Shown: positions 8,545 through 25,388, numbered from the stretch's first letter. The stretch is DNA of 64,000 nt from Mesotoga sp. Brook.08.105.5.1 (GCF_002752635.1 NZ_AYTW01000005.1:1-64000), one strand, 5' to 3'. A program made the numbers and translations. Notes: a model not told the origin generated them from the letters alone.

Positions 8545-9554
8545 GTTTAGCCAGGTTATTGATTAATCTCTCCAATGCCTTTGGACCTGTGGGATACGAA
8601 GATGAGGTCCATTCGGTAATTAGGGAAGCGATAGGTCCGTTTGTGGATGAGACCTATACAGACGAAATTGGAAATCTGATTGCAGTTAAGAAAGGAAGTG
8701 GGAAGAGAATAGGCGTATTCACTCATGTTGACGAGGTATCGCTTGTGATTTCGAGAGTCGATGAAAGAGGGTTTGCAAGGTTTGAAGAGCTAGGAGGCGT
8801 CGATCCTAAGGTATTGATTTCTCAGAAGGTTAAGATCAGGAGCAGAGATGGAAAGGAAAGATCAGGAGTAATTGGAATGTTGGCTCCCCACCTTCAGAAA
8901 AGGGAGACAAGAGGAGAAGTCCCTTCTTTCGATGAGCTCTTCATTGATGCTTCGATTAATCCGGATTATGAGAAGATAGGTGTTGGCGATCTTGCAGTAG
9001 TAGACATTTTAGCGTTTGAGATGAACGGCAAGGTTGCTGGGAAAGCTCTTGACGACAGAGCGTGTGCAGCGATAAGCATAGAGACTGCAAGAGAGCTCTC
9101 GAAATACAGTACAACTCCTACCGTCTATTTCGTGTTCACAACAAGAGAAGAAGTCGGGGCAATAGGAGCAAAGGGCGCCGCTGAAGCTTTGGAAATCGAT
9201 CTTGGTGTTGCCATGGATGTTACTCACCATGACAAAGAGAACGATGTCGAACTTGGAAAGGGTCCGGCCTTAACTGTTGGAGGCCCGAATATCCACAAGA
9301 AGTACTTTGAGTTACTCGATAAACATGCGAAAGACAATGAAATCAAAGTTCAATATGACTTCACCTCAGGTAGAACGGGAACTGATGCAGACAATGTCCA
9401 AATAGCCGGCACCGGAGTTCCAACGCTTCTGCTTTCTCTCCCTGAAATGTTCATGCACACTCCAGTCGAAGTAGTTCAAGTTAGTGATGTTGCAGGAACG
9501 GCCAGATTACTTGCAGGATTTTTCATATCACTGAAGGGGGCTGAGGAGCAATGA
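8541..9554 (+). CDS. M42 family aminopeptidase (TET-type), first paralogue
   Basis: 337 residues. Zinc-dependent exopeptidase whose relatives form large tetrahedral TET assemblies that trim peptides. Metal-site and catalytic motifs: THVDEV (His62, Asp64), KALDDRACA (bridging Asp), REEVGAIGA (catalytic and ligand Glu), AMDVTHHD (Asp) and MFMHTPVE (His). Homologues are often mislabelled endoglucanase or CelM. TTG start overlapping the minC stop, with GGGGGAGG before it. First of three tandem paralogues in a translationally coupled string. Confidence 0.93.
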   Translation: MSLARLLINLSNAFGPVGYEDEVHSVIREAIGPFVDETYTDEIGNLIAVKKGSGKRIGVFTHVDEVSLVISRVDERGFARFEELGGVDPKVLISQKVKIRSRDGKERSGVIGMLAPHLQKRETRGEVPSFDELFIDASINPDYEKIGVGDLAVVDILAFEMNGKVAGKALDDRACAAISIETARELSKYSTTPTVYFVFTTREEVGAIGAKGAAEALEIDLGVAMDVTHHDKENDVELGKGPALTVGGPNIHKKYFELLDKHAKDNEIKVQYDFTSGRTGTDADNVQIAGTGVPTLLLSLPEMFMHTPVEVVQVSDVAGTARLLAGFFISLKGAEEQ

Positions 9555-10591
9555 AGCTAGAACGCCTGAAAGACCTTTGTGAACTCCCGGGAATATCAGG
9601 TTTTGAGGAAAAAGTCTCTTCCTTCATCAGGAGCATTGTCGAGCCAAGAGTCGATTCGATCTGGACCGATACAGTTGGAAACCTAATTGCGGAGAAAAAA
9701 GGGACGGGGAAGAGTTCTAAGAAGCTTATGCTTCTTGCTCATACCGATGAGGTTGGTCTTATGGTGAAGAAGATCAATGAAGACGGCACACTCTCTTTCA
9801 CCAGTGTAGGAGGAGTCGATCCAAGAGTATTGATGGGTAAAAAGGTTTTGGTGGGAAAGGATTTTGTTCCTGGGGTGATAGGGTTTGAAGCCATACACAC
9901 TCAGGATCCAACCGCTTTGCTTAAAACACCAAGCATGGGCAAACTGAGAATCTATTTGGGTTATTCAAAGAAGGAAGAGGCTCAGAAGAACCATCGCATT
10001 GGAGACCCAGTATTCTTCGATACTCAGTACGAAGAGATTGGCGACTATGCGATTGCGAAATCATTTGACGACAGGACGGGGTGCGAAGTATTAATAAGGA
10101 TTCTTGAGAGCCTTGAAGGGTACCGTCTGGATTTTGATGTCTATTTCGCCTGGGTGGTCCAAGAAGAGGTTGGTCTGAGGGGAAGCGGGGTCGCGGCGAA
10201 ACAGATAAAGCCGGACGCAGCTCTTGTGTTCGAGAACACTACGGCTGGAGACAACCCGGAGCTTCCTGATTACAGGTGGGCCACAAGTCTTGGAAGAGGC
10301 CCCGTCTTAACATTTGCCCACAGTGGATTGGTGCTAGATAAGAGGATACTCGACACAATCGTGGATACTGCTAAGAAAAACTCAATAGAATTCCAGTACA
10401 AGAGCAGGATAGCTGGGGGTACTGATGCAGCTAGGCTTGCAAGAGTAATTTCGGGTATACCGTCAGGTGTTATCTCGACTCCTTCGAGATACATACATTC
10501 TCCAACTTCTGTAATAAACGTCAATGATTTTCTCGGAGTGGTAAAACTCGCCAGTTTACTAGTTAAGGAAGGGAAGGTGCTGTCTAGATGA
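9551..10591 (+). CDS. M42 family aminopeptidase (TET-type), second paralogue
   Basis: 346 residues. Motifs: LAHTDEVGL (His64, Asp66), KSFDDRTGC, QEEVGLRGS, and SRYIHSPTS. At the position of the usual fourth ligand (Asp in DVT) the sequence is VFENTTAGD, with Glu in place of Asp, as in one M42 subgroup. This suggests a different metal preference or side-chain specificity from the neighbours. The ATG overlaps the previous stop in ATGA. Same order as the T. maritima TM1048-TM1050 triplet from memory. Confidence 0.92.
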   Translation: MKLERLKDLCELPGISGFEEKVSSFIRSIVEPRVDSIWTDTVGNLIAEKKGTGKSSKKLMLLAHTDEVGLMVKKINEDGTLSFTSVGGVDPRVLMGKKVLVGKDFVPGVIGFEAIHTQDPTALLKTPSMGKLRIYLGYSKKEEAQKNHRIGDPVFFDTQYEEIGDYAIAKSFDDRTGCEVLIRILESLEGYRLDFDVYFAWVVQEEVGLRGSGVAAKQIKPDAALVFENTTAGDNPELPDYRWATSLGRGPVLTFAHSGLVLDKRILDTIVDTAKKNSIEFQYKSRIAGGTDAARLARVISGIPSGVISTPSRYIHSPTSVINVNDFLGVVKLASLLVKEGKVLSR

Positions 10592-11598
10592 AAAAGCTGA
10601 TTGAGAAACTGGTTACGATTAGTTCTCCCAGTGGTAGGGAGGATGCTATAAGGGAAGCGATCGCCGAAGAGATCAAACCATACGTTGATAGCATGAAGAT
10701 AGATCCGTTAGGCAATCTTGTTGCTCTGAAGAAAGGAAAGAGTGGCAAGAAGCTGTTATTTGACGGTCACATGGACGAAATCGGTGTCGTGGTCACACAT
10801 ATCGACTCAAATGGTTTTCTCAGGATTGATTCGATAGGTGCGCTGTCTCCATATATGCTTTTGGGTTCGAGATTGATTTTTGAGACAGGAGCATCAGGTG
10901 TCGTTGACCTAGAAGGTGAGACGATCAAAGAGCTCGGGGAGAGCATCAAGAATCTTGATTTCGACCACATTTTCGTTGACATCGGAGCAATAGATAAGAG
11001 TGATGCAGAGAGGAAGGCACCGATCGGGACTTTTGGAACATATGATTCAGAGTTCATCGATCTTGGAAAGAGACTCATCTCGAAATCTATGGACGACAGG
11101 ATCGCCTGTGCAATTATGATACAGGTCTTGAAAGAGCTAAAGGATCCCAAAGACGATGTTTACTTTGTCTTCGCCGTTCAGGAAGAAGTTGGACTAGTGG
11201 GTGCAAGTGTCGCTGCATTTGATATTATGCCAGATATGGCTGTTGCAGTAGATGTTACCACAGGACCCGACACCCCGAAATCTTTGAAGAGAATGGGATT
11301 CAAACTTGGAGAAGGACCTACGATAAAGATAAAGGATCGCGGAAGCATAAGCTCTTCGAGAGTAGTATCTAGATTGAAGGAGATTGCTGAGAAAAAGGAG
11401 ATTCCCACTCAGTATGAGGTCTTGATTTTTGGAGGCACTGACGCTAGAGGTTACCAGACGACCGGAAGAGGAATAGCCTCAGGAACGGTCTCGGTTCCTT
11501 GCAGATACGTGCACTCGCCTCACGAGATGGTTGATTATGATGATGTTCTTAATGCGGTTCGTCTGTTAAAGGCACTTGCTGAAGAAGGAGTGGAATGA
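10588..11598 (+). CDS. M42 family aminopeptidase (TET-type), third paralogue
   Basis: 336 residues. Motifs: DGHMDEIGV (His61, Asp63), KSMDDRIAC, QEEVGLVGA, AVDVTTGPD (Asp) and YVHSPHEMVD (His). All expected metal ligands and the catalytic Glu are present, so it should be active. ATGA overlap with the second paralogue. The three proteins share only the family pattern, which suggests old duplications with different substrate ranges (as acidic, basic and hydrophobic residue-specific TETs in archaea) rather than recent copying. Confidence 0.92.
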   Translation: MKKLIEKLVTISSPSGREDAIREAIAEEIKPYVDSMKIDPLGNLVALKKGKSGKKLLFDGHMDEIGVVVTHIDSNGFLRIDSIGALSPYMLLGSRLIFETGASGVVDLEGETIKELGESIKNLDFDHIFVDIGAIDKSDAERKAPIGTFGTYDSEFIDLGKRLISKSMDDRIACAIMIQVLKELKDPKDDVYFVFAVQEEVGLVGASVAAFDIMPDMAVAVDVTTGPDTPKSLKRMGFKLGEGPTIKIKDRGSISSSRVVSRLKEIAEKKEIPTQYEVLIFGGTDARGYQTTGRGIASGTVSVPCRYVHSPHEMVDYDDVLNAVRLLKALAEEGVE

Positions 11599-12584
11599 GA
11601 AGAATCACATTTACCAGTGAATCAGCTGAAAGGTGTCAGTTGATTTTTGGGAAGGCTTTTGCTGGAAGACTTCCAGAGTCCCTGAAAATAGTAGACTCTG
11701 GTTTTAGAAAGGTTTTTGGCGAAAGACTGGAAGACGAATACTTGATGCCCGGTGGAGAACATGTGAAGTCAGTTGACAGAGTGTTCGAAATATATCAGGC
11801 TATAAGGGCATCGAGAAGAAACGCAATAACAGCCGTTGGAGGAGGTTCTCTCATCGATCTGGTAGGTTATGCGTCATCAGGTCATACCGATATTGAGAAG
11901 CTCTTCCTCTTTCCTACGACGACAGTTAGTCAGGTGATGCCTGCGCTGAAAGGATTCAGGGTGAATTTCGAGTTTGTGAAGGACCTTCTCTCTTTCAACT
12001 GTCTCCCGGACAAAGTCTTCATTGATTTTGAGGTCAGTTACAGAGAGTATGCTTGCTCGTCCAAGAGTGTTCTGATCTTTCCTTTGCTGGTTGCCCTTTC
12101 GTTTGATAATAGGCTTTTCAAGTATCTTTTTAACGTTGTGGTCTCTGGTAAAGATATCTCTGCTGAGCAATGGGAAGATATTGTTTTCTCGTCAGTGAAA
12201 GCTTATCTTAAGGGAATTGAAACTGGCAGATTCGTTGTAGGCACGGAAATTGGAAGGCTTATTGAAACTGCTTCTAGGCTTAAGGCTGGATATGATTCTT
12301 CACTTCTATTTGGAGCCATGATGGAATTACGTCTGGCCGAGAAATTTGGTACAGGGGATAGTAGTGTGACAGAAGACTTTTTTAGAGTGGTGAAATTGCT
12401 GTGGGACAGTAGATGGTCTTCCAGAATTGATATGTCGTCCTTGGTTGACTTGGTCGAACAGAAAGGTGGTGTAAGAATCAGTACTCCTGACGGAAATCTC
12501 GACAAGACTTACTTCGTGGGGTGTTCTATATTTGAGAGATTTGTCAGGGAAAAGACCTGGAGGGGATTGGAGAATTTTGTATGA
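11595..12584 (+). CDS. 3-dehydroquinate synthase-like protein, degenerate
   Basis: 329 residues. The stretch AVGGGSLIDLVGYASSG followed by LFLFPTTTVSQVMPALKG and CLPDKVFIDF has the layout of the NAD-binding part of dehydroquinate synthase or glycerol-dehydrogenase-like folds (GGG, then PTT, then a product-release loop). The lysine-rich substrate loop and the C-terminal zinc histidines of genuine AroB are not apparent, so shikimate activity is doubtful. No other aromatic pathway genes are nearby. It is coupled (ATGA) to the M42 gene before it and the membrane protein after it, and probably serves a lineage-specific role. Confidence 0.6.
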   Translation: MRRITFTSESAERCQLIFGKAFAGRLPESLKIVDSGFRKVFGERLEDEYLMPGGEHVKSVDRVFEIYQAIRASRRNAITAVGGGSLIDLVGYASSGHTDIEKLFLFPTTTVSQVMPALKGFRVNFEFVKDLLSFNCLPDKVFIDFEVSYREYACSSKSVLIFPLLVALSFDNRLFKYLFNVVVSGKDISAEQWEDIVFSSVKAYLKGIETGRFVVGTEIGRLIETASRLKAGYDSSLLFGAMMELRLAEKFGTGDSSVTEDFFRVVKLLWDSRWSSRIDMSSLVDLVEQKGGVRISTPDGNLDKTYFVGCSIFERFVREKTWRGLENFV

Positions 12585-13321
12585 GCGAAGTATCGCATGA
12601 TTATGTTCTGAAGACTCTTATCGTTATCGTTCTTGCATTGTCGGCAGTTGTCATGACGCTTGGAGGATATGCTATTTTTCTCCGGGAGGAAAACAGAAAG
12701 TCGGAACTCATAATTGAGGAAATCAGAAGTTCTGTGCTTTCTCAGGGGATCGATCAGCCTGAACAGCCGGACAATCCCGTACAATTTCCCACAGGAACAC
12801 AGGTTGTCAGAGAGACAATATCGATTCCAGAAACTCAGAACTTCTTTCTTGAGGTATTCGACTATAGGCGGCTAATACTGAACTCCTTCGACTTTCTTGC
12901 AGAAGGTTCCGAGTTTGGTTATGTTGTTGTGGAAGAAGATACAGCATTCAAGTTGTGCGTGGAGAAAGGTCTCGGGAAGTACTTTATCACCAGGGTGGGG
13001 GATAGTTTTGGCGTGATGTTTCTGGGGAAGAACCCACTTGACGGACTTTATGACTCAAAGACGGCTTATGGAATTCAACTCGTATCGCACACAGTCTCAG
13101 ATGGGATAGCACCACAAGTAATGGATCTGAGGAGTGCAGGTTACCCTGCCTTTGTGTATAAGTCAATAACCGCGGACGGGAGAACATTCTATGCAGCTGT
13201 TTTAGGGATTTTCCCTGATGCGGCAGCGGCCAGAGAGTACTCTTCATCAGTCGACGTTCAGGCACTCCAGAGGATAACGGGCTGGAATATCACTGACAGG
13301 TTTCCGAGGCAGTTGAGATGA
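12581..13321 (+). CDS. Single-pass membrane protein with a SPOR-like C-terminus
   Basis: 246 residues. A membrane helix at about 10-32 is followed by a polar linker with prolines and an extracytoplasmic domain. The last 60 residues (VYKSITADGRTFYAAVLGIF, then DAAAAREYSS) resemble the SPOR pattern of an aromatic strand followed by a helix with alanines. SPOR domains bind denuded peptidoglycan at septa, and the operon starts with minC, but the match is weak. ATGA overlaps on both sides. Function not recognised. Confidence 0.6.
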   Translation: MSEVSHDYVLKTLIVIVLALSAVVMTLGGYAIFLREENRKSELIIEEIRSSVLSQGIDQPEQPDNPVQFPTGTQVVRETISIPETQNFFLEVFDYRRLILNSFDFLAEGSEFGYVVVEEDTAFKLCVEKGLGKYFITRVGDSFGVMFLGKNPLDGLYDSKTAYGIQLVSHTVSDGIAPQVMDLRSAGYPAFVYKSITADGRTFYAAVLGIFPDAAAAREYSSSVDVQALQRITGWNITDRFPRQLR

Positions 13322-14094
13322 GGAAGATTTCGGTCAAGGAGTTACAGATAATCGGATCAATTGTGATACTAGTGCTCATGGGGTTTGTGGCCCTCTCAGG
13401 GTATAGCGGTAGCAACTCAACGGCCATCGGTGAAAACTCTGATAAACCGAAGTCGGTTAGCTTCCCTATTGATTTGAACTCTTGCTCGGAGAAGGAGCTG
13501 GAGCTGTTGCCGGGGATAGGCCCTGCCAAGGCCCGAGCAATAGTCGATTACAGAGCTACGTCCGGTCCGTTTTTTTCCATTGACGATCTTCTTCTTGTCA
13601 GGGGAATTGGTGAAAAGACCCTGAGTAACTTGAGAGAAATGGTGACCGTTTCCGGTCAGCTGTATTCCAACGCAGAAGGAGTGGTTTTAATCGACATAAA
13701 CACGGCTTCCTCTCAGTCTCTTCAGAAAATTCCAGGAATCGGTGAAGCTAAGGCAGCTGCTATAATCGAATACAGGGAACTCAAGGGACCCATAATAACT
13801 GAGGAAGACCTTCTCAATGTACCTGGAATCGGACCTTCCATACTTCCTGAGATACTTGCTGCCATTATTCCTCTTATCGGGGCTGAAGAACAATCCGGTT
13901 CGAGAAAGGTGAATGTTAATAACGCAGATGTGGAAGACCTCTGTAAGCTTCCAGGCATCGGGCCCGTGCTTGCTCAGAGAATAGTTGACACGCGTGCTCA
14001 TTTCGGTCCATTTCGTTCGTGCGATGATCTGGCTAAGGTAAGTGGAATTGGTGATAAGACCATTGCCAGTTTGAAGGAGCTGGTTGAGTTTTGA
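13318..14094 (+). CDS. ComEA-like protein with three helix-hairpin-helix domains
   Basis: 258 residues. One N-terminal membrane helix (about 8-28), then three tandem HhH units: LPGIGPAKARAIVDYR with VRGIGEKT, IPGIGEAKAAAIIEYR with VPGIGPSI, and LPGIGPVLAQRIVDTR with VSGIGDKT. Each begins with the DLN or NVNNA strand typical of ComEA, the DNA receptor of natural transformation, which has only one such unit. It should sit on the outer face of the membrane and bind double-stranded DNA without sequence specificity. No comEC is in the window. Three units may raise affinity. Confidence 0.85.
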   Translation: MRKISVKELQIIGSIVILVLMGFVALSGYSGSNSTAIGENSDKPKSVSFPIDLNSCSEKELELLPGIGPAKARAIVDYRATSGPFFSIDDLLLVRGIGEKTLSNLREMVTVSGQLYSNAEGVVLIDINTASSQSLQKIPGIGEAKAAAIIEYRELKGPIITEEDLLNVPGIGPSILPEILAAIIPLIGAEEQSGSRKVNVNNADVEDLCKLPGIGPVLAQRIVDTRAHFGPFRSCDDLAKVSGIGDKTIASLKELVEF

Positions 14095-14870
14095 ATCTGC
14101 TTCATGTTTGCTGCGCACCGGATCTAGTTAGTTCTGTTTTGAAGAGAGAGGAACTGAAGCATTCAATGCTGCTTTTCTATAATCCGAATATCTATCCTGA
14201 AGAAGAGTTCTTCAAAAGATATCATGCTTTCCGAAGAGTCTGTCAAGAAATGGGAGTTGAGTGTCCTGAACCAGACTACAGCCCCGAGGACTTCTCTGCT
14301 ATTCATGATTCCTTTGAAGATGAGCCGGAAGGGGGCATGAGATGTACGAAATGTATAGAATTAAGGTTGAGAAAGGCAGCGGAAGCTGCAAAATCCTTAG
14401 GTGCCAAGAGCTTCAGTACCACGCTTCTTGCAAGCCCCCAGAAGCCAATTTATCTGATCTGTCAGATTGGGCAGAAAGTTTCGGAATCGTTTGATTTGGA
14501 GTTCATTTCGGAAAACCTAAGACTAGAAAGGGGAAAGCTAAATCAGTTTTTGGGTAATGTCTATGTCCAGAATTACTGTGGCTGCAAATCTAGTCTCAAG
14601 GAAATTGTCCAGACCAGAGAGATCAAGAAAAGGAGAGATAAAGAGGCGCTAGAGAGAGACTTTTCATGCTTCGCCGATCTCTGGAGATTCAGAGGTGCCG
14701 TAATTTCTCGAAGCAGCATCCCCGTTGAAGAGGTCTCCGTGTTGAAAGAGCTGATAACTCTCATTAAGCCTTGTGCACTTCTTGATGATGTCGAAGATGT
14801 TTCACTACAAGGCAAAAGATGGTTGAAAACCGGGAGTTACAACTGCCGGATAATCAGGGAGAAGAAGTAA
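14091..14870 (+). CDS. queH: Epoxyqueuosine reductase QueH
   Basis: 259 residues. Performs the last step of queuosine synthesis in tRNA, reducing epoxyqueuosine without cobalamin; it replaces QueG. The DUF208 signature is present: HVCCAPD at the N-terminus (adjacent cysteines), RCTKCIELRL with CxxC, and YCGCKSSL, the conserved cysteines for the iron-sulfur cluster and metal. The C-terminal 70 residues extend past the core. It begins with TTG inside the previous stop. Other que genes are not in the window. Confidence 0.9.
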   Translation: MNLLHVCCAPDLVSSVLKREELKHSMLLFYNPNIYPEEEFFKRYHAFRRVCQEMGVECPEPDYSPEDFSAIHDSFEDEPEGGMRCTKCIELRLRKAAEAAKSLGAKSFSTTLLASPQKPIYLICQIGQKVSESFDLEFISENLRLERGKLNQFLGNVYVQNYCGCKSSLKEIVQTREIKKRRDKEALERDFSCFADLWRFRGAVISRSSIPVEEVSVLKELITLIKPCALLDDVEDVSLQGKRWLKTGSYNCRIIREKK

Positions 14871-15175
14871 TGGATACTCTGGCAAAAAGAATCAGATCAC
14901 TGGGGGAAGAGTGTGGAATGGTCTTTCGCCTGGTCGACGAAAAAGGGATTCCTTATGATGGGGAGTTGGAATTTGATATCCCTCAGCTCATAATCGCGCT
15001 TTCAAAAGCTACGGGTTCGAGAAGCTCAACGGTTGTGAATGGGACGCAGATTACCGCTCTATATCTTGATGGAATTAGAAAGAGTTCTTATCTCATAGTG
15101 CTCGGTGAGTTCCTTGAAGACAACGCATATAGGCTTTTGAAAACGGTTATCGAGTCCCATGAGGCGAACCTGTGA
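14870..15175 (+). CDS. Small conserved-looking protein of unknown function
   Basis: 101 residues when started at ATG 14870, which overlaps the queH stop by one base and has GGGAGAAG before it; the upstream in-frame start at 14819 lies inside queH and lacks a site. The protein is soluble and mixed alpha/beta, with a central beta-like part (STVVNGTQITALYL) and a C-terminal helix. No motif recognised. The next gene (ogg) begins in its stop codon (GTGA), which implies coupled expression with queH and ogg. Confidence 0.65.
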   Translation: MDTLAKRIRSLGEECGMVFRLVDEKGIPYDGELEFDIPQLIIALSKATGSRSSTVVNGTQITALYLDGIRKSSYLIVLGEFLEDNAYRLLKTVIESHEANL

Positions 15176-16065
15176 TTGAATTCACTTTGAAACCTGCGGG
15201 TCTAATTGATCTTGATTCGACACTTGACTGTGGTCAGACTTTTCGATGGCGAAAAGAAGGAGACTGGTGGAAGGGAGTTGTTCGAGATACAGTTCTCTTC
15301 CTGAAAGAGGACTCAGATGGAATTATCGTCAGATCTTCCTCCAAATCTTTGCTCGGAAAAGATATCTATGAGGAAATTGGGAACTACCTTGGACTTGGGG
15401 ATAATCTGGAGGAGATTCACTCTATAATTCTGGAAAGACTGAAGTGTTTTGATCAAAGGGTTAGAATAGTGTCTGAAAAGGCTCTCAAGGAAGCCGAAGG
15501 ACTGAGAATACTAAGGCAAGATCCTTTTGAGATGGTTGTGGAGTATATTCTCTCAACTAGAAACAGCATTCCTATGATTCGATGGATGAGCGACAAACTA
15601 TCGGAACTCTTTCCCGAAAACAGGATCGATCTATGTCAGGAGAGTTACTACACGTTTCCTTCATTGGAGCAGGCCAAGGGAATCTCAGCAGAAGCTCTGA
15701 CCGAGCTCAAAATCGGTTTCAGGGTTCCGTGGCTTATGAAACTCTTTTCAGACATAGAGACAGAAGGGTATTTCTCACGGCTTTCTTCACTGGCTGCTGA
15801 AGACTTGCTCGAAGAATTGATGAAGCATGACGGCATTGGTTACAAGGTAGGTAGCTGTGTAATGCTCTTTGCCTACGGTAAGCTGAGCGCCTTCCCGGTA
15901 GATATCTGGGTGAGCAGAGTGATGAAAGATCTGTTCGCGCTGGACGGTTCAACAAAAAAGGTAATGCAGTTTGGAATGGATTCCTTCTTTCCTTATGGAG
16001 GGTACTATCAAGAAGCACTATTCAGGTACTATAGAACTCACAAACTAGGAAGAGAGAAGAAATGA
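15172..16065 (+). CDS. ogg: 8-oxoguanine DNA glycosylase/lyase, OGG1-like
   Basis: 297 residues. Removes oxidised guanine from DNA and nicks the abasic site. It follows the OGG1/AlkA layout: an N-terminal TBP-like domain with CGQTFRW, then the helix-hairpin-helix DGIGYKVGSCVMLFAY carrying the catalytic Lys (GYK), and FPVDIW holding the catalytic Asp. The motif EYILSTRNSIPMI corresponds to the SACNNIPRI motif of OGG1, with S-T-R-N in place of C-N-N. GTG start overlapping the previous stop. It adds to the oxidative and photochemical repair genes in the window. Confidence 0.88.
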   Translation: MIEFTLKPAGLIDLDSTLDCGQTFRWRKEGDWWKGVVRDTVLFLKEDSDGIIVRSSSKSLLGKDIYEEIGNYLGLGDNLEEIHSIILERLKCFDQRVRIVSEKALKEAEGLRILRQDPFEMVVEYILSTRNSIPMIRWMSDKLSELFPENRIDLCQESYYTFPSLEQAKGISAEALTELKIGFRVPWLMKLFSDIETEGYFSRLSSLAAEDLLEELMKHDGIGYKVGSCVMLFAYGKLSAFPVDIWVSRVMKDLFALDGSTKKVMQFGMDSFFPYGGYYQEALFRYYRTHKLGREKK

Positions 16066-17360
16066 GGATAAATGTTATCGGTGGAGGACTGGCCGGTTCT
16101 GAAGTTGCTTTGAGCCTCGCGGATTTCGGAAAAGAGGTAATGATTTTCGAGATGAGACCTGCCAGGAAAACCGATGTTCATCAAACGGAAGACTTTGCGG
16201 AACTAGTATGCAGCAACTCTTTGAAATCTAAGTCACTGGACAATGCATCGGGCCTGTTGAAGGAAGAGGGTCTGCTAATTGGCTCCCGACTTCTGGAAGC
16301 CGCCCACCGTCATAGAGTACCTGCGGGAAAGGCTTTGGCAGTAAACAGAGAGACCTTTGCAAGAGAGATCACTAGGAGGATAGAGAACCACCCACTTATC
16401 AGTGTTCGGAGAGAAGAGGTGTGCCAGCTAGACATCTCCGGGTCAGTCAATATAGTGTGTACCGGCCCACTAACTTCTGAATGCCTTGAGAATTATCTAG
16501 GTGAACTGTTCGGCAACGCACTCTTTTTCTTTGATGCTGTAGCTCCAATAGTCGCTTCGGATTCGGTAAACTTCGAGAGAGCCTTTGTTGCTGACAGATA
16601 TTCCGACACCGGAGACTACGTGAACTGCCCTCTTACGACTGAGGAGTACGAAGTTTTCTGGAAGGAGATTGTATCGGCAGAAGTTTTGGAGATCGAAAAC
16701 TTCTCGGATCGATTTCTCTTCGAACGCTGCCAGCCTGTTGAAGAGATAGCGCGAAGCGGAAAAGAAGCTCTGAGATTTGGTCCAATGAAGCCGGTGGGAC
16801 TGACCGATCCTGCAACGGGAGAAGAACCTTTTGCGGTTGTTCAGCTTAGAAAGGAAAATCTCTCAGGTTCACTGTTAAGTCTTGTTGGGTTTCAAACGAG
16901 GCTGAAATGGAGCGAGCAGAAGAGAATCCTAGGACTTATCCCAGCTCTAAGGAACGCCGACATTGCCAGATATGGAGTAATGCACAGGAACACCTTCCTC
17001 GATTCACCCAAGCTTCTGAATCCCGATCTTCAGTCCAAAGATTACCAAGGGCTGTTCTTTGCAGGACAGATTTGCGGTCTTGAAGGATACGTGGAGGCAA
17101 TAGTCTCCGGAAGGCTTGTGGCAATCAATGTCAATCGATTTGTTGACGGTCGCAGAACGTTAATTCCTCCGAAGGAGACAATGCTTGGAGGGCTGGTCAA
17201 CCATGTAACAGTATCTGGCAGGAGTCCCTTAAGGCCAGTCTATGCGAATTTTGGTCTTCTACCGGAGATAAGGATGAGAGATAAGAGAGAGAAGAATAGA
17301 AGAAAGGTATTAAGAGCGCAAGAGCAGATGGAGCATTTCCTGAAAGAGGTGAGAAAGTGA
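16062..17360 (+). CDS. trmFO: TrmFO, folate/FAD-dependent tRNA m5U54 methyltransferase
   Basis: 432 residues. Methylates U54 of the tRNA T-loop with methylenetetrahydrofolate as carbon donor and FADH2 as reductant. The N-terminal dinucleotide motif VIGGGLAGSEVA is followed by the family signature VCSNSLKSKSLDNASGLLKEE, here quoted as CSNSLKSKS. Later motifs GPMKPVGLTDP, LRKENLSG and FAGQICGLEGYVE are typical. Length is normal. It replaces the SAM-dependent TrmA type. Overlaps ogg and manA by four bases each. With ThyX nearby, two flavin enzymes here use methylene-folate. Confidence 0.96.
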   Translation: MRINVIGGGLAGSEVALSLADFGKEVMIFEMRPARKTDVHQTEDFAELVCSNSLKSKSLDNASGLLKEEGLLIGSRLLEAAHRHRVPAGKALAVNRETFAREITRRIENHPLISVRREEVCQLDISGSVNIVCTGPLTSECLENYLGELFGNALFFFDAVAPIVASDSVNFERAFVADRYSDTGDYVNCPLTTEEYEVFWKEIVSAEVLEIENFSDRFLFERCQPVEEIARSGKEALRFGPMKPVGLTDPATGEEPFAVVQLRKENLSGSLLSLVGFQTRLKWSEQKRILGLIPALRNADIARYGVMHRNTFLDSPKLLNPDLQSKDYQGLFFAGQICGLEGYVEAIVSGRLVAINVNRFVDGRRTLIPPKETMLGGLVNHVTVSGRSPLRPVYANFGLLPEIRMRDKREKNRRKVLRAQEQMEHFLKEVRK

Positions 17361-18148: not shown

Positions 18149-19317
18149 AGCACATTTTGGTTCTTGCCTTTATATTGACCGTTTCAGCTCTTGCCTTTTC
18201 TGTTGACAAAACGGATTTGCTTCTTTCGAAGAACTACCTTATGGATATTCAATCACTTGACAGCAGAGATTTGGAAACGAAGGCTTATCTTACGTTAGCC
18301 GTGGGTCTGAAGTACAGAGAGACTATCCAACCAAACTACAAGGTTTGGTTTAGTAATCTTTACTCAGAGCTTCAAGGAGAGGTACTTCCTCCGTACCTTC
18401 AGGAAGCCATCGAGGTGGTCTACCAGTTAGTCGCTGTTTCAACTGTCTCTGCGTTGAATATGCTCTATTCGTCTGAAAGCGAGGACCATCTCTTGAAGGC
18501 GGTATCTCTGAGAGCCTTCTTCTATGATTGGGTTGATACAAGAGATCCGAGATCGGCAAAGCAGATCGAGGAGACGGCAAATGAGTTGATTGACGCTCGA
18601 CCCGGGCAGTATTTCCCATACAAAGCTTTGCTGGAGTTGTATTCCAGCATCGGCTCAATGGATATTGAAAGGTTAATGGAAATCCGAGAAACGGTATTCT
18701 CTGAAAACCTTCAGGGACTGCTCGGAGACGATCTTATCGAAAGTGAATTTGTCTCAGGGCTTACAGAGGTGGTTATAGAGGACTTTTCGAGGCTGGAAAC
18801 AGAGGATCCACTTTCCAGCTATTATGTGGCGATGTCCTATCTGCAACTTGGTGAAGTACCTCAAGCTTGGGAGATCTTAGACTCCCTCGATCTGAATCAG
18901 ATTCCTCCCAGATTTGCGTCTAATGCTTCGATGGTAATTGGAGACATCTACCTTGAAGATGGTGACTTTGAAGAAGCAATTGAGCGCTATCAGGAGGCAG
19001 TACGTTTTTGGCCGAACAACTCAAGGGCTATTAGGAATCTTGGAATGGCCTATTATGAGACGAAAGATCGAGACTACTATGATTTAGCTAGGTTCTATCT
19101 TCAGCTGAGTGGATTCGAAGATTATGATTATGCAGTAAGTTCTGCACTGAAGGAGTTAAGGCGAAGAGTAATCTTTGAACTGGCGCTTGTTACAGTAGTC
19201 CCGCTTACTGCCGTAGTAGTCCTGGGGCTCTTTCTGTTAGAATACTTTAGTAGAAAGAGAAAGAGTTCACAAGAGAGAAAGGCGATGAAAGAAGACGGAG
19301 GAAATGATGAGAATTGA
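18145..19317 (+). CDS. Secreted TPR protein with a C-terminal membrane anchor
   Basis: 390 residues. Signal peptide at 1-18 (ending SALAFS), a helical body with TPR-like units clearest at about 230-320 (MSYLQLGEVPQAWEILDSLD, then DGDFEEAIERYQEAVRFWPN, then RNLGMAYYETKD), one membrane helix near 335-358 (LVTVVPLTAVVVLGLFLLEY) and a basic cytoplasmic tail. TPR units usually scaffold protein complexes; here the repeats would face the periplasm. Partner unknown. GTG start overlaps the manA stop. Confidence 0.78.
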   Translation: MKHILVLAFILTVSALAFSVDKTDLLLSKNYLMDIQSLDSRDLETKAYLTLAVGLKYRETIQPNYKVWFSNLYSELQGEVLPPYLQEAIEVVYQLVAVSTVSALNMLYSSESEDHLLKAVSLRAFFYDWVDTRDPRSAKQIEETANELIDARPGQYFPYKALLELYSSIGSMDIERLMEIRETVFSENLQGLLGDDLIESEFVSGLTEVVIEDFSRLETEDPLSSYYVAMSYLQLGEVPQAWEILDSLDLNQIPPRFASNASMVIGDIYLEDGDFEEAIERYQEAVRFWPNNSRAIRNLGMAYYETKDRDYYDLARFYLQLSGFEDYDYAVSSALKELRRRVIFELALVTVVPLTAVVVLGLFLLEYFSRKRKSSQERKAMKEDGGNDEN

Positions 19318-19999
19318 TGTTCTTGACAAAGGGTTCGTCGAGCTTGTAGACCGAATGGGAGATGACTACTCAGCGGTTCAGGCAGCTAGGGTAAGTTATG
19401 GTAAGGGCTTAACTAGCAAAGATAGAGATGATCGCCTAATTCGTTATTTGATGGAGCATGGTCACCACTCCCCTTTTGAACACATAGTGTTCAAGTTCCA
19501 CTTGAAGCTACCGATTTTCGTTATGAGACAGCTCGTGAGACACAGAATAGCGTCAATAAATGAGCGAAGCGGAAGATATACTGAGTTCTCTGATGAGTGG
19601 TATCTGCCAGATTCCATAAGGACTCCAGACGGCGAAAACAAACAGGGTTCAGTGGAATGTGCAGATAAGGCAATCACTCAAAAGGCGATTGCAATAATCG
19701 AAGAAGCCTATAAGAACGCTTTTGTCGCTTATAGTAGACTCATAGAAATGGGCGTTGCGAAAGAGATGGCGAGAATTGTACTGCCCACATCTATGTACAC
19801 AGAGGCGTACTGGACTATCAATGGAAGGTCGATTATGAATTTCCTAAATCAGAGAGCAGATTCTCATGCTCAGCCAGAAATCCAACTGTATGCTAGTGCA
19901 ATCGCAGAGATTTTCGAAGCTAAATGTCCGGTAGTATATGATGCTTTCATCAGGTACAACTATACAGGTGATCTTCTGAATAAGGAGGTTAGGGGATGA
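19307..19999 (+). CDS. thyX: Flavin-dependent thymidylate synthase ThyX
   Basis: 230 residues from the second ATG (19307), which is 5 bases from GGAGG; the first ATG at 19304 is only 2 away. Makes dTMP from dUMP using methylene-folate and FAD. The ThyX signature is clear: RHRIASINERSGRYTEF, matching RHRxxSxNExSxRY. Also HHSPFEHI and the C-terminal RADSHAQPEIQ. Thermotogae classically use ThyX; T. maritima TM0449 is the reference enzyme. It overlaps the TPR gene end by about 11 bases and the DRTGG gene by four. Confidence 0.97.
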   Translation: MRIDVLDKGFVELVDRMGDDYSAVQAARVSYGKGLTSKDRDDRLIRYLMEHGHHSPFEHIVFKFHLKLPIFVMRQLVRHRIASINERSGRYTEFSDEWYLPDSIRTPDGENKQGSVECADKAITQKAIAIIEEAYKNAFVAYSRLIEMGVAKEMARIVLPTSMYTEAYWTINGRSIMNFLNQRADSHAQPEIQLYASAIAEIFEAKCPVVYDAFIRYNYTGDLLNKEVRG

Positions 20000-20358
20000 G
20001 ACTTGCCAATATCATCCGGTTACTTGATTGCGAGATACTGAATAATGTAACTGAAGATCCTGAAATAGAGTCGGTAGGAGCTGCAGATCTGATGAGTGAT
20101 GTGCTTGCTTTTGGAGGACCTGGAATGATTCTGGTAACAGGCCTGAATTCTCCTCAATGTGTTAGAACTGCCTCAGTGGTTGGAGCCGCTGCAGTGTTGA
20201 TAATAAGGAAAAGAAATGTTCCTGAGACCACGATTCATCTGGCTCAAGAACTTGAGATGCCTTTGATTCACGCAAGAATGTCGATGTACAGGACTTGCGG
20301 AATTCTTTATAGAGAGGGTCTTGGAGATTCACTAGAAGAAGGGAAGAACTTTGACTGA
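19996..20358 (+). CDS. DRTGG-domain protein, first copy
   Basis: 120 residues. Resembles the single-domain DRTGG family: an N-terminal strand-helix segment (LANIIRLLDCEIL), the motif AADLMSDVLAFGG and the closing region of alternating Val and Ala (TASVVGAAAVLIIRK). DRTGG domains are often linked to CBS domains and may bind nucleotides; function unknown. It is followed by a TTG start of the CBS/HATPase protein inside its 3' end. A second copy at 21312 is diverged, so the two may form a heterodimer. Confidence 0.78.
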   Translation: MRLANIIRLLDCEILNNVTEDPEIESVGAADLMSDVLAFGGPGMILVTGLNSPQCVRTASVVGAAAVLIIRKRNVPETTIHLAQELEMPLIHARMSMYRTCGILYREGLGDSLEEGKNFD

Positions 20359-21310
20359 ACGAAGTGTTGACGACCTCCTTGAAAAGTTAAGAGGGTTATT
20401 TGTAGATATAACGGCAAAAGACATAATGTTGAAGAGCGTTATCACGCTAACCAAAGATAGAACGATGTGGCAGGCGAAAGAACTGATGAGGATCTGCAAG
20501 ATATCAGGAGTTCCCATTACCGATGCCGATAACCAGCTGGAAGGCATAGTGAGTATAGAGGACATTATTGTTGCTCTGGAGGGCAACTACATAACTGATT
20601 CGATTGAAAAGCATATGACAAGGGATTTAGTTACACTCTCTCCAGAGATGAATCTTGAGGCACTGATTGAGAAGTTCAACAGATACAGATACGGGAGATT
20701 CCCAGTTGTTGATTCCGAAGGGAAGCTCATCGGAATAATTACAAAGAAGGATATTATCGGAGCCATTCTTGATAAATTCAGGCTAATCTACGTTCACGAT
20801 ACCCGACGAAGGGAAGTTCTGGAGAGAAGTGTTGACTGGTTTGATAAGTCTCTTATTTCGGGAGATGCCGTTGAGAAAAAGAGTGCTGACTTCGTATTCC
20901 ATATTGATTATTCGGAAATTGACATGGCCGGAGTTGGATCTGCGAAACTGAAGAGCTATCTGAAGACGCTTACAGATGACGACAATCTGATACGGAGAGT
21001 ATCAATCGCCTGTTATGAAGCTGAAGTGAACGTCGTAATTCATAGCGGTAGCGAAGGTTATATCTTCGCCTGGTACGATGAGGCCCTGGTAAGAGTGAGA
21101 GTTGAAGACTATGGAAGAGGTATTGAAAACGTGGAGCAGGCAATCAAGGAAGGATTCTCCACGGCGTCTGATCACATTCGCGAGCTGGGTTTTGGAGCGG
21201 GGATGGGCCTTCCGAACATGAGAAGGTACTCAGACAAAATGGTTGTAGTATCTGAGACGGGAAAAGGGGTTGTGGTTGAAATGCACTTCTATCGAAATGG
21301 GAGGAAATGA
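20351..21310 (+). CDS. CBS-pair plus HATPase (anti-sigma/kinase-like) protein
   Basis: 319 residues. Two CBS motifs (about 20-75 and 85-140) carry AKDIMLKSVITL and RYGRFPVVDSEGKLIGIITK; such pairs bind adenosyl ligands. The C-terminal half (about 175-315) has the GHKL ATPase fold: VRVEDYGRGIE (G1 box with Asp), and GFGAGMGLPNMRRYSD (G2-like lid). There is no phosphoacceptor His domain, so it resembles anti-sigma kinases or switch proteins more than a full histidine kinase. TTG start with GGGAAG. It sits between two DRTGG genes and probably senses energy charge. Confidence 0.82.
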   Translation: MTERSVDDLLEKLRGLFVDITAKDIMLKSVITLTKDRTMWQAKELMRICKISGVPITDADNQLEGIVSIEDIIVALEGNYITDSIEKHMTRDLVTLSPEMNLEALIEKFNRYRYGRFPVVDSEGKLIGIITKKDIIGAILDKFRLIYVHDTRRREVLERSVDWFDKSLISGDAVEKKSADFVFHIDYSEIDMAGVGSAKLKSYLKTLTDDDNLIRRVSIACYEAEVNVVIHSGSEGYIFAWYDEALVRVRVEDYGRGIENVEQAIKEGFSTASDHIRELGFGAGMGLPNMRRYSDKMVVVSETGKGVVVEMHFYRNGRK

Positions 21311-21311
21311 C

Positions 21312-21647
21312 ATGAGATTGAGCGAACTGGTTGACAAATGTGGGACAAAAGTAGTCACAGACTTACCTCTCGAGGCTGACATATCGGATGCTTACATTGG
21401 AGACTTGCTTAGCGACGTAATGGGAAATGCCCCATCGAATTCTATCTGGTTGACTGTTCAGTCTCATATGAATATTCTGGCAGTTGCCACTATTGTAGGG
21501 GTCAAAGCAATTGTGTTGTGTAATGGTCTTCACTTCGACGACGCGACTATTAGAAAGGCCGAGGAAACGGGAATCGTCCTTATGGAAAGCGAAGAAACTA
21601 CCTTCGATCTTGTTTACAGGCTAATAAAGAGTGGTTTCAAGGGCTGA
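21312..21647 (+). CDS. DRTGG-domain protein, second copy
   Basis: 111 residues from ATG 21312, one base after the previous stop region and preceded by GGGAGGAAAT; an earlier in-frame ATG at 21270 is buried in the upstream gene. Motifs: LSELVDKCGTKVV, AYIGDLLSDVMGN and VATIVGVKAIVLCNG. It parallels the first copy at 19996 but is clearly diverged. It belongs to the same five-gene module. Confidence 0.78.
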   Translation: MRLSELVDKCGTKVVTDLPLEADISDAYIGDLLSDVMGNAPSNSIWLTVQSHMNILAVATIVGVKAIVLCNGLHFDDATIRKAEETGIVLMESEETTFDLVYRLIKSGFKG

Positions 21648-21653
21648 AGTGTT

Positions 21654-22373
21654 TTGCAGTTTCTTTGCGACTTTCACATTCATAGCTGTCTCTCTCCATG
21701 TGCCGAAATTACAATGACGCCAGGCGAGATTGCAAAAGTATGTGTATCAAGAGGGATCGATTGGATTGCTATTACGGATCATAACAGTGCGGGTAACGTT
21801 AGAGTTTTCAGCAGTGTTCTTCAAGAAGTGGGGGTTTCCGTGATCCCCGGCATAGAAGTACACACACTTGAGGATGTTCACGTATTAGCGTATTTTCCAG
21901 ATGTTTCGTCAGCAGAAGGGTATTCTGCATTTCTTAAGAGAGAGAAGCTTCCGATAGTTACGATAGACCCTGAGATATCTGGTTATCAGTTGTTGGTGGA
22001 TGAGAATGATTCTTTTGTAGGTATGGAGGAAATCTGGCTTGGACAGCCAGCTTCTCTGAGCATTTCTGAGACTCTTAAGACTGTAGAAGAGAATGGTGGG
22101 ATTTCGGTAATGGCTCATATTGATAGGAAAATGGGTCTCATTGTGCAGCTCGGACTTGTACCAGAAGAATGTATAGAAGTGCCCATGGAGATTTCTTTTG
22201 AAAGGACTCTGAAGCGGGGGCTGCAGACGAAAAACATTATACATTCAAGTGATGCACATAGTTTAGACCTGATCAAGCCCACAGTGGCAATTTCGGCCAG
22301 CACAAGAAGCTTCGAGGAGTTCAAAACTGCGATTTTTTCCTCAGGAAGGGCGTTGAGTATAATATGGGACTGA
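21654..22373 (+). CDS. PHP-domain phosphoesterase
   Basis: 239 residues. PHP metal motifs in order: CDFHIHSCLSPC (HxH), AITDHNSAG (DH), PGIEVHTLEDVHVLAY (ExH, and H), VMAHIDRK (H) and HSSDAHSLD (DxH). Residues for a three-metal centre are all present. PHP enzymes hydrolyse phosphoesters or pyrophosphates of nucleotides or proteins; substrate not deducible. TTG start at 21654 is the only suitable one, with a weak ribosome site, suggesting reliance on translational coupling from the gene ending 6 bases earlier. Confidence 0.85.
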   Translation: MQFLCDFHIHSCLSPCAEITMTPGEIAKVCVSRGIDWIAITDHNSAGNVRVFSSVLQEVGVSVIPGIEVHTLEDVHVLAYFPDVSSAEGYSAFLKREKLPIVTIDPEISGYQLLVDENDSFVGMEEIWLGQPASLSISETLKTVEENGGISVMAHIDRKMGLIVQLGLVPEECIEVPMEISFERTLKRGLQTKNIIHSSDAHSLDLIKPTVAISASTRSFEEFKTAIFSSGRALSIIWD

Positions 22374-22927
22374 GAACAATCTGCGACCACATACTGGATA
22401 TTGCTCAGAACTCAGTAGATTCTGGAACAAAAACAGCGAAGTTAACGATCGAAGAAAGGAAGGAAGAGACTCTCTTTTTCTCGGTTGTGGACTGGGGTAA
22501 GGGCATTAATGCTCAATCTTTGGAAGCAGTCATGGATCCTTTCTATACGGAAAAGAAAAAGAAAGTCAATTTCGGATTAGGCTTGCCGATGCTGAAGTTT
22601 GCAGCTGAATCTACGGGAGGCAACTTCGAAATTCGTTCAGAGCCTGGGATTGGTACAGAGGTTAGCGCACTGTTCATTCTTTCAAGTGTCGACTGTCAGC
22701 CTGTAGGTGATGTCCCATCGACTCTATTTGCTGTGATTACTATGAAAGACAATGTAGACTGGACAATAGAGAGAGTTCTAGATGAAGATGGTTATTCTTT
22801 CTCCTCGGCTCAATTCAGAGAAGTTCTGGGGAACGACTGTTTCGTTTTTCCAGTCAAAATGAAGATGATTCTTGAAATTCTTCAGGAGGCAGAAATTTCA
22901 CTGGGAGGTTTATCGGATGTCCATTAG
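22364..22927 (+). CDS. Stand-alone HATPase (histidine-kinase-like ATPase)
   Basis: 187 residues. GHKL ATPase fold: N box HILDIAQNSVDSG, G1 VVDWGKGIN, F box DPFYTEKKKK and G2 FGLGLPMLKFAA, followed by an extra C-terminal 60 residues of mixed structure. No dimerisation or phosphoacceptor domain. It overlaps the PHP gene by 10 bases and ends after the bamA start, so it closes the signalling module. Homologous stand-alone HATPases lie beside bifurcating hydrogenase genes in several anaerobes (from memory). Confidence 0.83.
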   Translation: MGLRTICDHILDIAQNSVDSGTKTAKLTIEERKEETLFFSVVDWGKGINAQSLEAVMDPFYTEKKKKVNFGLGLPMLKFAAESTGGNFEIRSEPGIGTEVSALFILSSVDCQPVGDVPSTLFAVITMKDNVDWTIERVLDEDGYSFSSAQFREVLGNDCFVFPVKMKMILEILQEAEISLGGLSDVH

Positions 22928-25388
22928 AAGATTATCGATTATTCTTAGTCTGCTTTTGCTATGTGGGTTTGGTTTGGCAAGCATCGTTCCGTCAAGGATC
23001 GCTGTTCTTGACAACAGAGTGATCTCAGACAACGAAGTTCTAGAGATTCTGAACATTCAGCGTGGAAAGGAAATAAGCGGTTCTGAACTAGAAGAGGCGA
23101 TAGAGAGAGTGAAGAACAGTGGTTACTTTTCCGATGTGTATCACAGCTTTGATGAAGCATCCAGACTTCTGACAGTTCAGGTCAAAGAGTACCCTGTTGT
23201 AGAGGTTTCAGTTGTTTTCGACGGTCCGAAAATCGTTGAAACATCTCTACTCGAAGCTGCTTCAGTTATCAAGAGTGGCAAACCTATGAATCCTTCAAGG
23301 TTGATGTATGATATTCCCTTAACCCTAGAAGCAATAGAGAGCAAACTGGCTGAAAGCGGTTATATAGAACCGTTTGTACGGGTAGAGTGGGAGACCGATA
23401 AAGACAGAGCCGACGTTTTTTCAGGCAATGTTACTGATAAGGTGAAGGTCACTTTTACAGTTAAAATCTCTTTCCTGTGGGAGCTTTCGATCGATGCTCC
23501 AATATCGGATGAAGCTAAATCCTATCTCCTTAGTAGATTGGAGATAGATTATTTGAAAAAGTATTACGATACTTCGATCCTGATTAGATGGGTCAATTCT
23601 AAGAAAAAGTATGTTCCAAGAGTCGAAGACATTAACAGAGTCGTTCAGACGATTTACTCCACTTATTATGCTAATTCAAACGGACAGTGGGGATTCGATG
23701 ACAGAACTTATCAGGCGATGATCGTGACACTGAATAACGCCCTGAAAAGCGTGAGACAGGTGACGCTTCCCGATGAAGTTAGGGAAAGCAGCGCATTATC
23801 AATGAGTATCACTTTCACGCCGATAGAGTATGTAAAATCGGGATTCGAATTAAGAAGTGTCTTTATTGAGGGGAACGTTAACTTGCAGAAAGGAGAAATC
23901 CTTAGACAGACCGGTCTTGCTGAAGGTCAGAAGGTTGACAATGAGATTGCGGCAAAGGCAATTCAGGCAGTTCAAGACTTATATACCGATAGGGGTTATC
24001 CCTTTATGAGAATTGAGCCGGTAATTGATGAAAAAATCGGCTTCTTCAGTCTGAAGATAACTGAGCCCTTAGTGAGAGACGTAACAGTTGAATTTGATGG
24101 TCCAAAGAAGACTCAGGATTATCTCATCAATGACAAAATCGTCATTGAGAAGGGTAAGGTTTTGTCCTTGGATGAGCTTAGAAACACATATGCCTTCTTA
24201 AACAACACAGGTTACTTCTCGAAAGTGGATATTGCTCCTGTTCCTGTAGGTAGCGATGCATTGGATGTGAAGATCACGCTTACGGAAACCGATAAAAACA
24301 ACAGGATTGGTGGCGGCGGAGGATGGCAGAATGGTCTGAATCTTTATCTTGATCTGGGACTGCTCAATGTGTGGGGTTATGGTCAGAATATCTCAACTAC
24401 GCTCAGTGTTACCCTTCCAATGCCCAACAACAAAGAAGTTGTTTTGACTGAAGGAGCCACGGAAACAACAACGAGAAGACCGGCCTTTGATGCCACTATA
24501 GGCTATTCGATTCCCAAGATCGGTGGTTCCAGGCTTGATTTGGACACGGCCTTCAGACTGAAATTTACTGGATTTACGACAACAATCGATTCCACCGATA
24601 CCATAGTAACCAAAGCTTCTCAGGATACAGAGTTCATGCTCTCATTTACTCCAAGTTACAAGCTGTCACCCGGACAAAAAATTGGGTTTACTGCGGGGTA
24701 TGAGTATATTATGTCAGAGAGCAAGGTTTCTACAGAGACTAAGCCTGCGACTGGCGACGATACTGGGAGCGTCTCCGAAAGCTTTGACGGGCTGTTTACT
24801 GGGATAAGTTATCAGCTCTCTACCCGAGATGACATCCTAAGGCCGACAATGGGAAGTGAGTATCTTGCCGGCCTCACTGCTAGAGGTATCCTTGGGAAGG
24901 ACGACAAACTGTTCCTTTCGGGATATGCAGAGTACAAGAATTTCATGTCAATAGGAGATCCAGTTCTTGGCTTCAGGATAAGAACGCAGCAGCTTTTCCC
25001 GCTCTCTTCTAACGGTGTCTTCAGAAACTATCTGTTTAGCCCGGACTCTCTCATTAGGGTAAGGGGTTCTCAGAGTATCGGTCAGAATTCCTACGGTGTA
25101 ACTGTCGGTTCTGCCCAGCTGAGATATCCGTTGACACCGGAAACATCGTCAATACCTGTTGACATAGTTGGGTTCGGTGACTTGCTTTTCTATCGGAACA
25201 GTTCGGGCGGGGACATAATCGGAGGAAACTTTCTTGCTGATTTTGGTCTTTGCATAGATATATCAATTCCAATGATTGGGTTGGTTCGTCTTGGTTACGG
25301 ATACAACACGAGCCTTGCTGAACAGAATTCCATGTATGGCAAGCCGTATTATGGAACTCCCTTCTTTGGTTTTGGGCCTGCATTCTAA
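22917..25388 (+). CDS. bamA: BamA/Omp85-family outer-membrane assembly protein
   Basis: 823 residues from ATG 22917, chosen because GGGAGG precedes it and a signal peptide (residues 1-21, ending GFGLAS) follows directly. POTRA-like units fill the N-terminal half, for example RIAVLDNRVISDNEVL, LRSVFIEGNVNLQKGEIL and VTVEFDGPKKTQDYL. The C-terminal ~350 residues are a beta-barrel with alternating polar and aromatic strands, ending in Phe (FFGFGPAF), the classic outer-membrane signal. It folds barrel proteins into the sheath-like outer membrane of Thermotogae. It overlaps the HATPase gene by 11 bases and ends the operon at a strong terminator. Confidence 0.92.
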   Translation: MSIRRLSIILSLLLLCGFGLASIVPSRIAVLDNRVISDNEVLEILNIQRGKEISGSELEEAIERVKNSGYFSDVYHSFDEASRLLTVQVKEYPVVEVSVVFDGPKIVETSLLEAASVIKSGKPMNPSRLMYDIPLTLEAIESKLAESGYIEPFVRVEWETDKDRADVFSGNVTDKVKVTFTVKISFLWELSIDAPISDEAKSYLLSRLEIDYLKKYYDTSILIRWVNSKKKYVPRVEDINRVVQTIYSTYYANSNGQWGFDDRTYQAMIVTLNNALKSVRQVTLPDEVRESSALSMSITFTPIEYVKSGFELRSVFIEGNVNLQKGEILRQTGLAEGQKVDNEIAAKAIQAVQDLYTDRGYPFMRIEPVIDEKIGFFSLKITEPLVRDVTVEFDGPKKTQDYLINDKIVIEKGKVLSLDELRNTYAFLNNTGYFSKVDIAPVPVGSDALDVKITLTETDKNNRIGGGGGWQNGLNLYLDLGLLNVWGYGQNISTTLSVTLPMPNNKEVVLTEGATETTTRRPAFDATIGYSIPKIGGSRLDLDTAFRLKFTGFTTTIDSTDTIVTKASQDTEFMLSFTPSYKLSPGQKIGFTAGYEYIMSESKVSTETKPATGDDTGSVSESFDGLFTGISYQLSTRDDILRPTMGSEYLAGLTARGILGKDDKLFLSGYAEYKNFMSIGDPVLGFRIRTQQLFPLSSNGVFRNYLFSPDSLIRVRGSQSIGQNSYGVTVGSAQLRYPLTPETSSIPVDIVGFGDLLFYRNSSGGDIIGGNFLADFGLCIDISIPMIGLVRLGYGYNTSLAEQNSMYGKPYYGTPFFGFGPAF

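Follow-up and report, generated by a model that had tools for sequence, protein, structure and literature searches.

What does a compact set of five genes, encoding two DRTGG-type proteins, a CBS-linked ATPase, a PHP phosphoesterase and a free-standing ATPase, do in a Mesotoga genome, and does it still serve a hydrogenase? In the window (the whole stretch of DNA analysed, 64,000 nucleotides), the ORF listing and the sequence place five open reading frames, DRT1-CBSH-DRT2-PHP-HATP, on the + strand at 19996-22927, flanked as follows:

19304..19999, + strand: thyX, the upstream neighbour, overlapping DRT1 by 4 bases (PF02511, 205 bits)
19996..20358, + strand: DRT1, a DRTGG-fold protein (model fold, conservation)
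20351..21310, + strand: CBSH, two CBS domains fused to a SpoIIAB/RsbW-like GHKL domain (Pfam, motifs)
21312..21647, + strand: DRT2, a second DRTGG-type protein (sub-cut-off Pfam match, ortholog, conservation)
21654..22373, + strand: PHP phosphoesterase (PF02811, 31.0 bits; conservation)
22364..22927, + strand: HATP, a stand-alone GHKL ATPase (PF02518, 49.1 bits; model pLDDT 88)
22917..25388, + strand: bamA (Omp85/POTRA), the downstream neighbour, overlapping HATP (PF07244, PF01103)

Adjoining genes overlap by 4, 8 or 10 bases or are separated by gaps of 1-6 bases, and the five are translationally coupled between thyX and bamA, the full chain being thyX - DRT1 - CBSH - DRT2 - PHP - HATP - bamA. 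DRT2 starts at an ATG at 21312 (the ORF listing extends to a TTG at 21270), and the start codon of PHP is TTG. The original prediction of five tightly coupled genes of these families is thereby borne out by the reading frames, Pfam matches, folds and conserved gene order. The order thyX-cassette-bamA is kept in relatives of several families (f1, f2 and f8, and on the bamA side also f4), so the arrangement is not a product of chance. Elsewhere in the window, at 13318-14094, the translation reads as a protein of 258 aa in which three ComEA-like helix-hairpin-helix repeats stand in tandem.

The two DRTGG proteins score 18.0 (DRT1) and 18.9 (DRT2) against PF07085, both below the cut-off of 25.2, and a match of DRT2 to PF02603 (20.4 bits) is also below its cut-off. 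Their orthologs score 30.1 and 25.3 bits, the latter being a clostridial DRT2 ortholog over the cut-off, and every one of the 29 DRT1 relatives in the alignment has a DRTGG match (best 1e-10). A sequence search of the PDB with DRT1 gave no match, but a fold search with its AlphaFold model (pLDDT 89) did: the top match is the DRTGG protein 2ioj (E 6.3e-6, TM 0.79), followed by the CBS/DRTGG region of a clostridial pyrophosphatase (3l2b) and HPr kinase. Membership of the DRTGG family is confirmed for both proteins through their relatives and the modelled DRT1 fold. In 65 DRT1 sequences from Thermotogota and Clostridia, D31, S34, T48, L50 and Q54 are invariant; in DRT2, T62 and N68 are invariant and D45 and S48 are 99% conserved. 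Across both phyla, D31/S34/T48/Q54 of DRT1, D45/S48/T62/N68 of DRT2, the GHKL motifs of CBSH (ExxxN, DxGxG, GxGxG) and HATP (DxxxN), and the PHP metal ligands are all invariant or at least 98% conserved.

CBSH exceeds the Pfam cut-offs for two CBS domains (102 bits), HATPase_c and HATPase_c_2 (31.3 over 27.4), and carries the CBS-domain motifs S68xxD71 and T131xxD134 together with an N-box (E223xxxN227), a G1 box (D253xGxG) and a G2 box (GFGAGMG). Among GHKL proteins its top scores are to HATPase_c_2/SpoIIAB models, and it falls far below the SpoIIAB equivalog cut-off (49.8 vs 135). It thus resembles the anti-sigma serine kinases SpoIIAB and RsbW in its HATPase_c_2 match and ExxxN N-box; unlike them, it carries CBS domains and is partnered by DRTGG proteins, no STAS partner having been identified. 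A second likeness is to the CBS-DRTGG region (3L2B/3L31) of family II pyrophosphatase, which is regulated by AMP and diadenosine tetraphosphate and shares both the CBS pair and the DRTGG fold, although here CBS and DRTGG lie on separate proteins, with a GHKL ATPase taking the place of the pyrophosphatase as effector. In CBS/DRTGG pyrophosphatase, AMP and ADP inhibit whereas ATP and ApnA activate (PMC11172384).

The PHP domain scores 31.0 over a cut-off of 26.4, and its metal-ligand residues (H8, H10, D42, H43, E68, H76, H155, D200, H202) are conserved in 97 sequences; a sequence search of the PDB returned weak PHP proteins only. Beside the ligands, Cys16 (window 21699-21701, within HSCLSPC) is invariant in the 97 PHP proteins from two phyla, and is a possible redox switch or ligand. 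The N-box of HATP is acidic (D12xxxN16), and the protein has an alpha/beta extension at its C-terminus; its modelled fold resembles the ATPase domains of MutL, BCKDK/PDK and histidine kinases, so that HATP may be not a kinase but an ATPase.

The same five families, in matching order and with common invariant residues, occur in the clostridial HydABC cluster: hydC-DRT1-kinase-HydS-like-DRT2-PHP-(hydC)-HATP-hydD-hydB-hydA. The original prediction had placed such sets beside [FeFe]-hydrogenase genes in clostridia, and this is correct; it also holds within the Thermotogota, in the Mesoaciditogales-like family f7 (G008, G012, G015, G016), where CBSH-DRT2-PHP-HATP runs straight into hydC and hydB, hydD being included in three of these genomes and hydA lying divergent from the operon in G012. 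Clostridial loci came from a PHP-motif scan over 84,980 species genomes, the matches to which are Clostridia; since the motif was taken from a clostridial sequence, Clostridia having it are over-represented in the sample, and within that sample hyd genes lie at 29 of 38 cassette loci with at least 3 kb of downstream sequence. HydB is encoded in 17 of the 18 genomes searched, those with locally orphan cassettes included. In 299 genomes drawn evenly from Bacillota, HydB is present in 131/132 DRT1-positive and 111/167 DRT1-negative genomes (Fisher p 1.5e-15, ignoring phylogeny), and DRT1 and HydB lie no more than 12 kb apart in 66 of 88: a genome with the cassette almost always encodes HydB as well, and one with HydB need not carry the cassette. 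Cassette and hydrogenase genes are linked in these lineages. A literature search on DRTGG with hydrogenase yielded nothing but an unrelated gene; kinases and phosphatases upstream of hyd genes have been described at Cthe_0340-0342 and Cthe_0428-0430 (PMC3492117). As a separate observation, nine of nine f2 genomes (G034-G036, G046-G051) whose HydB is short of ~110 N-terminal residues are also without the cassette CBS-kinase; this was not counted as evidence of a link between cassette loss and HydB truncation, as other cassette-less genomes have full-length HydB.

In most Thermotogota, as in this genome, the cassette lies between thyX and bamA, away from hyd genes, and one could suppose that there it serves its operon neighbours, in thymidylate synthesis or outer-membrane assembly, and that the hydrogenase link belongs only to other lineages. 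The conserved gene order and the overlapping frames speak for this reading, which we nevertheless consider doubtful: in f7 and g35 the cassette is found away from thyX and bamA, and its f7 neighbours are hydC-hydD-hydB. We know of no functional tie between thyX or bamA and DRTGG, CBS or PHP proteins.

If the cassette belongs to a hydrogenase, does this genome encode one? No [FeFe] hydrogenase was found in the window, in line with the original prediction, but its absence does not extend to the genome: the cassette is on contig C5, and a whole-genome profile search found a single Fe_hyd_lg_C (PF02906) gene on another contig (C36:43605-44456), within a HydA of 586 aa at C36:42939-44699. This HydA passes NF040763 (NADH-dependent [FeFe] hydrogenase, group A6; 849.5 over 765), and its H-cluster motifs are intact (TSCCP, MPCTAK, EIMACPGGCIGGGG). 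HydC-HydD-HydB lie at about C36:69953-72687, 24 kb from HydA; HydD (also called Fd2) is a 126-aa Fe-S protein, and HydB shares 68% identity with the cassette-linked HydB of G012. Judged by these matches, the gene set of a predicted group A6 bifurcating [FeFe] hydrogenase (HydA, HydB, HydC) is present. In phylogenetic trees, its HydB (100/98) and HydA (96/93) group with the cassette-adjoining enzyme of f7, apart from T. maritima-type HydABC. The complete genome of a relative, G023, has the cassette at 2.203 Mb, HydB at 2.264 Mb and HydA at 2.292 Mb, a distance of about 60-90 kb between cassette and hyd genes. A second HydC/NuoF pair occurs directly 3' of hydB in this genus and in other families (L081 7766-9918), its NuoF having 538 aa and about 51% identity to HydB.

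Linkage and HydB co-occurrence elsewhere, cognate HydA, HydB, HydC and HydD in this genome, and conserved catalytic sites together point to the cassette as a HydABC regulator. On balance we favour the hypothesis, by a modest degree of belief, that it is an accessory regulatory module of group A6 (NADH-dependent, HydABC-type) [FeFe] hydrogenase, detached in this lineage and operating an adenylate-sensing serine phospho-switch. The original suggestion of an orphan phospho-switch regulator is reasonable as to regulation and as to the hyd genes not being adjacent, but the genome is not free of hydrogenase genes, a cognate HydABC being encoded elsewhere. HydABC beside a second cassette had been named as a finding that would speak against that suggestion; HydABC does lie elsewhere, and no second cassette was found in this genome.

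The phosphotransfer, its targets and its ligands are what we infer. CBSH would act as a SpoIIAB/RsbW-like serine kinase, with adenine nucleotides sensed by its two CBS domains, a gating supported by the joint occurrence of CBS and DRTGG in the nucleotide-regulated pyrophosphatase; it would phosphorylate the invariant serine of DRT1 (S34) and/or that of DRT2 (S48), and PHP would reverse or limit this phosphorylation. The state of the DRTGG proteins, perhaps read out via HATP, would then turn the HydBC electron-transfer core up or down. Against the regulatory hypothesis stand the existence of HydB genomes without the cassette, the distance of this cassette from hyd genes, and the failure to identify a STAS partner, which SpoIIAB-like kinases usually have as their substrate.

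The input to such a switch appears to differ between phyla. Thermotogota CBSH proteins are 306-388 aa with CBS motifs in 36 of 36 cases, whereas the clostridial kinase is about 140 aa (nearly all of 40 counterparts are 139-170 aa) and lacks CBS. It is followed by a HydS-like protein (4Fe-4S/Fe-hydrogenase/FeS) whose best Thermotogota relative is the HydS of T. maritima. In the window no HydS-like sensor is found between kinase and DRT2, and the genome's only PF02906 match is HydA. There is thus an apparent sensor swap, HydS in Clostridia against CBS in Thermotogota. Because the clostridial kinase lacks CBS and is accompanied by a protein of Fe-S/hydrogenase fold, the input would be H2 or redox in Clostridia and energy charge here.

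The original prediction had also placed the cassette beside HydABC in T. maritima, and this did not hold. In G091, which we take to be Thermotoga-type from gene lengths matching T. maritima HydABC, the genes flanking HydABC are those for Rex, a SpoIIE-type phosphatase and HydS, and the DRT1-CBSH-DRT2-PHP set lies instead beside gltX. The T. maritima cluster likewise has serine-type phosphoregulation genes beside a bifurcating [FeFe] hydrogenase, but it contains no DRTGG, CBS-kinase, PHP or HATP, and its HydA and HydB fall in another clade; Rex, SpoIIE-type phosphatase and HydS are a different regulatory set for T. maritima-type HydABC. On L087 (G091), Rex, HydA, HydB, HydC, the SpoIIE-type phosphatase, HydS and a 75-aa Fe-S protein form one cluster at 8982-16818.

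A further possibility is that the GHKL and PHP proteins are not a phospho-switch at all, and instead serve to assemble, repair or activate the HydBC (Bfu) core, driven by ATP as in MutL-type ATPases. HATP folds onto MutL as well as onto kinases, its acidic N-box is like that of ATP-hydrolysing GHKLs, and the constant partner of the cassette is the Fe-S-rich HydB; in addition, a 'hisK', which we infer to correspond to HATP, is encoded in the [NiFe]-HydABCSL operon of A. mobile and is not in the holoenzyme (PMC9304861). For CBSH, however, the HATPase_c_2/SpoIIAB models are the best matches among GHKLs, and Clostridia have a HydS-like sensor in the place of its sensory CBS pair, so that we regard an assembly role as rather unlikely and retain the regulatory hypothesis.

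What the putatively regulated enzyme does here is a further question. We searched this genome for HydF and HydG, two of the three activating enzymes; in the assembly, which is 100% complete, HydG had no match and HydF only GTPase-domain matches (86 bits against a cut-off of 325.55), while one positive-control genome (inferred to be T. maritima) passes both cut-offs. Kosmotoga-type maturases gave no tblastn match in the 0.22 Mb of genus DNA covered, a weak negative. G019, of the same family, carries hydG-hydE-hydF at C1:413150-417092 (L238; 530, 287 and 538 bits). Mesotoga is described as lacking a bifurcating hydrogenase and producing little H2 (PMC7795431), with H2 reported solely as traces (PMC4603820), and at the biochemical level the absence of a working bifurcating hydrogenase may yet prove true. 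With HydG and HydF not detected, the enzyme under the proposed cassette control may not be an active hydrogenase.

The non-detection of HydF and HydG, together with the unlinking of cassette and hyd genes, would also fit a relic, an orphan cassette decaying after an active hydrogenase was lost. This we consider very improbable: CBSH sequences within the genus share 83-91% identity and have intact motifs, conservation that already indicates purifying selection, and in 7 members of the genus a cognate HydA, from which the G026 copy differs in kind, has kept every H-cluster ligand and sits on short branches. A more speculative extension of the regulatory hypothesis, which we put forward tentatively and hold to be rather improbable as a whole, is that purifying selection maintains an A6 HydABC in the lineage along with its CBS/DRTGG switch but without H-cluster maturases, the complex being a non-H2, possibly bifurcating NADH:ferredoxin oxidoreductase (e.g. 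towards sulfur) whose regulator has exchanged its sensor, HydS in Clostridia for CBS in Thermotogota.

The apparent sensor swap and a HydA-bearing genome with no HydG or HydF detected are both new to us. The latter offers a natural test of HydABC function minus the H-cluster, and the non-detection of HydF and HydG may explain the little H2 reported for the genus. The apparent HydS/CBS exchange suggests that a single output can be fed by either of two inputs, H2/redox or adenylates. With its near-constant HydB co-occurrence in Bacillota, a near-invariant serine in both DRTGG proteins and a neighbouring kinase-like ATPase, the cassette makes the on-off switching of bifurcating [FeFe] hydrogenases directly testable.
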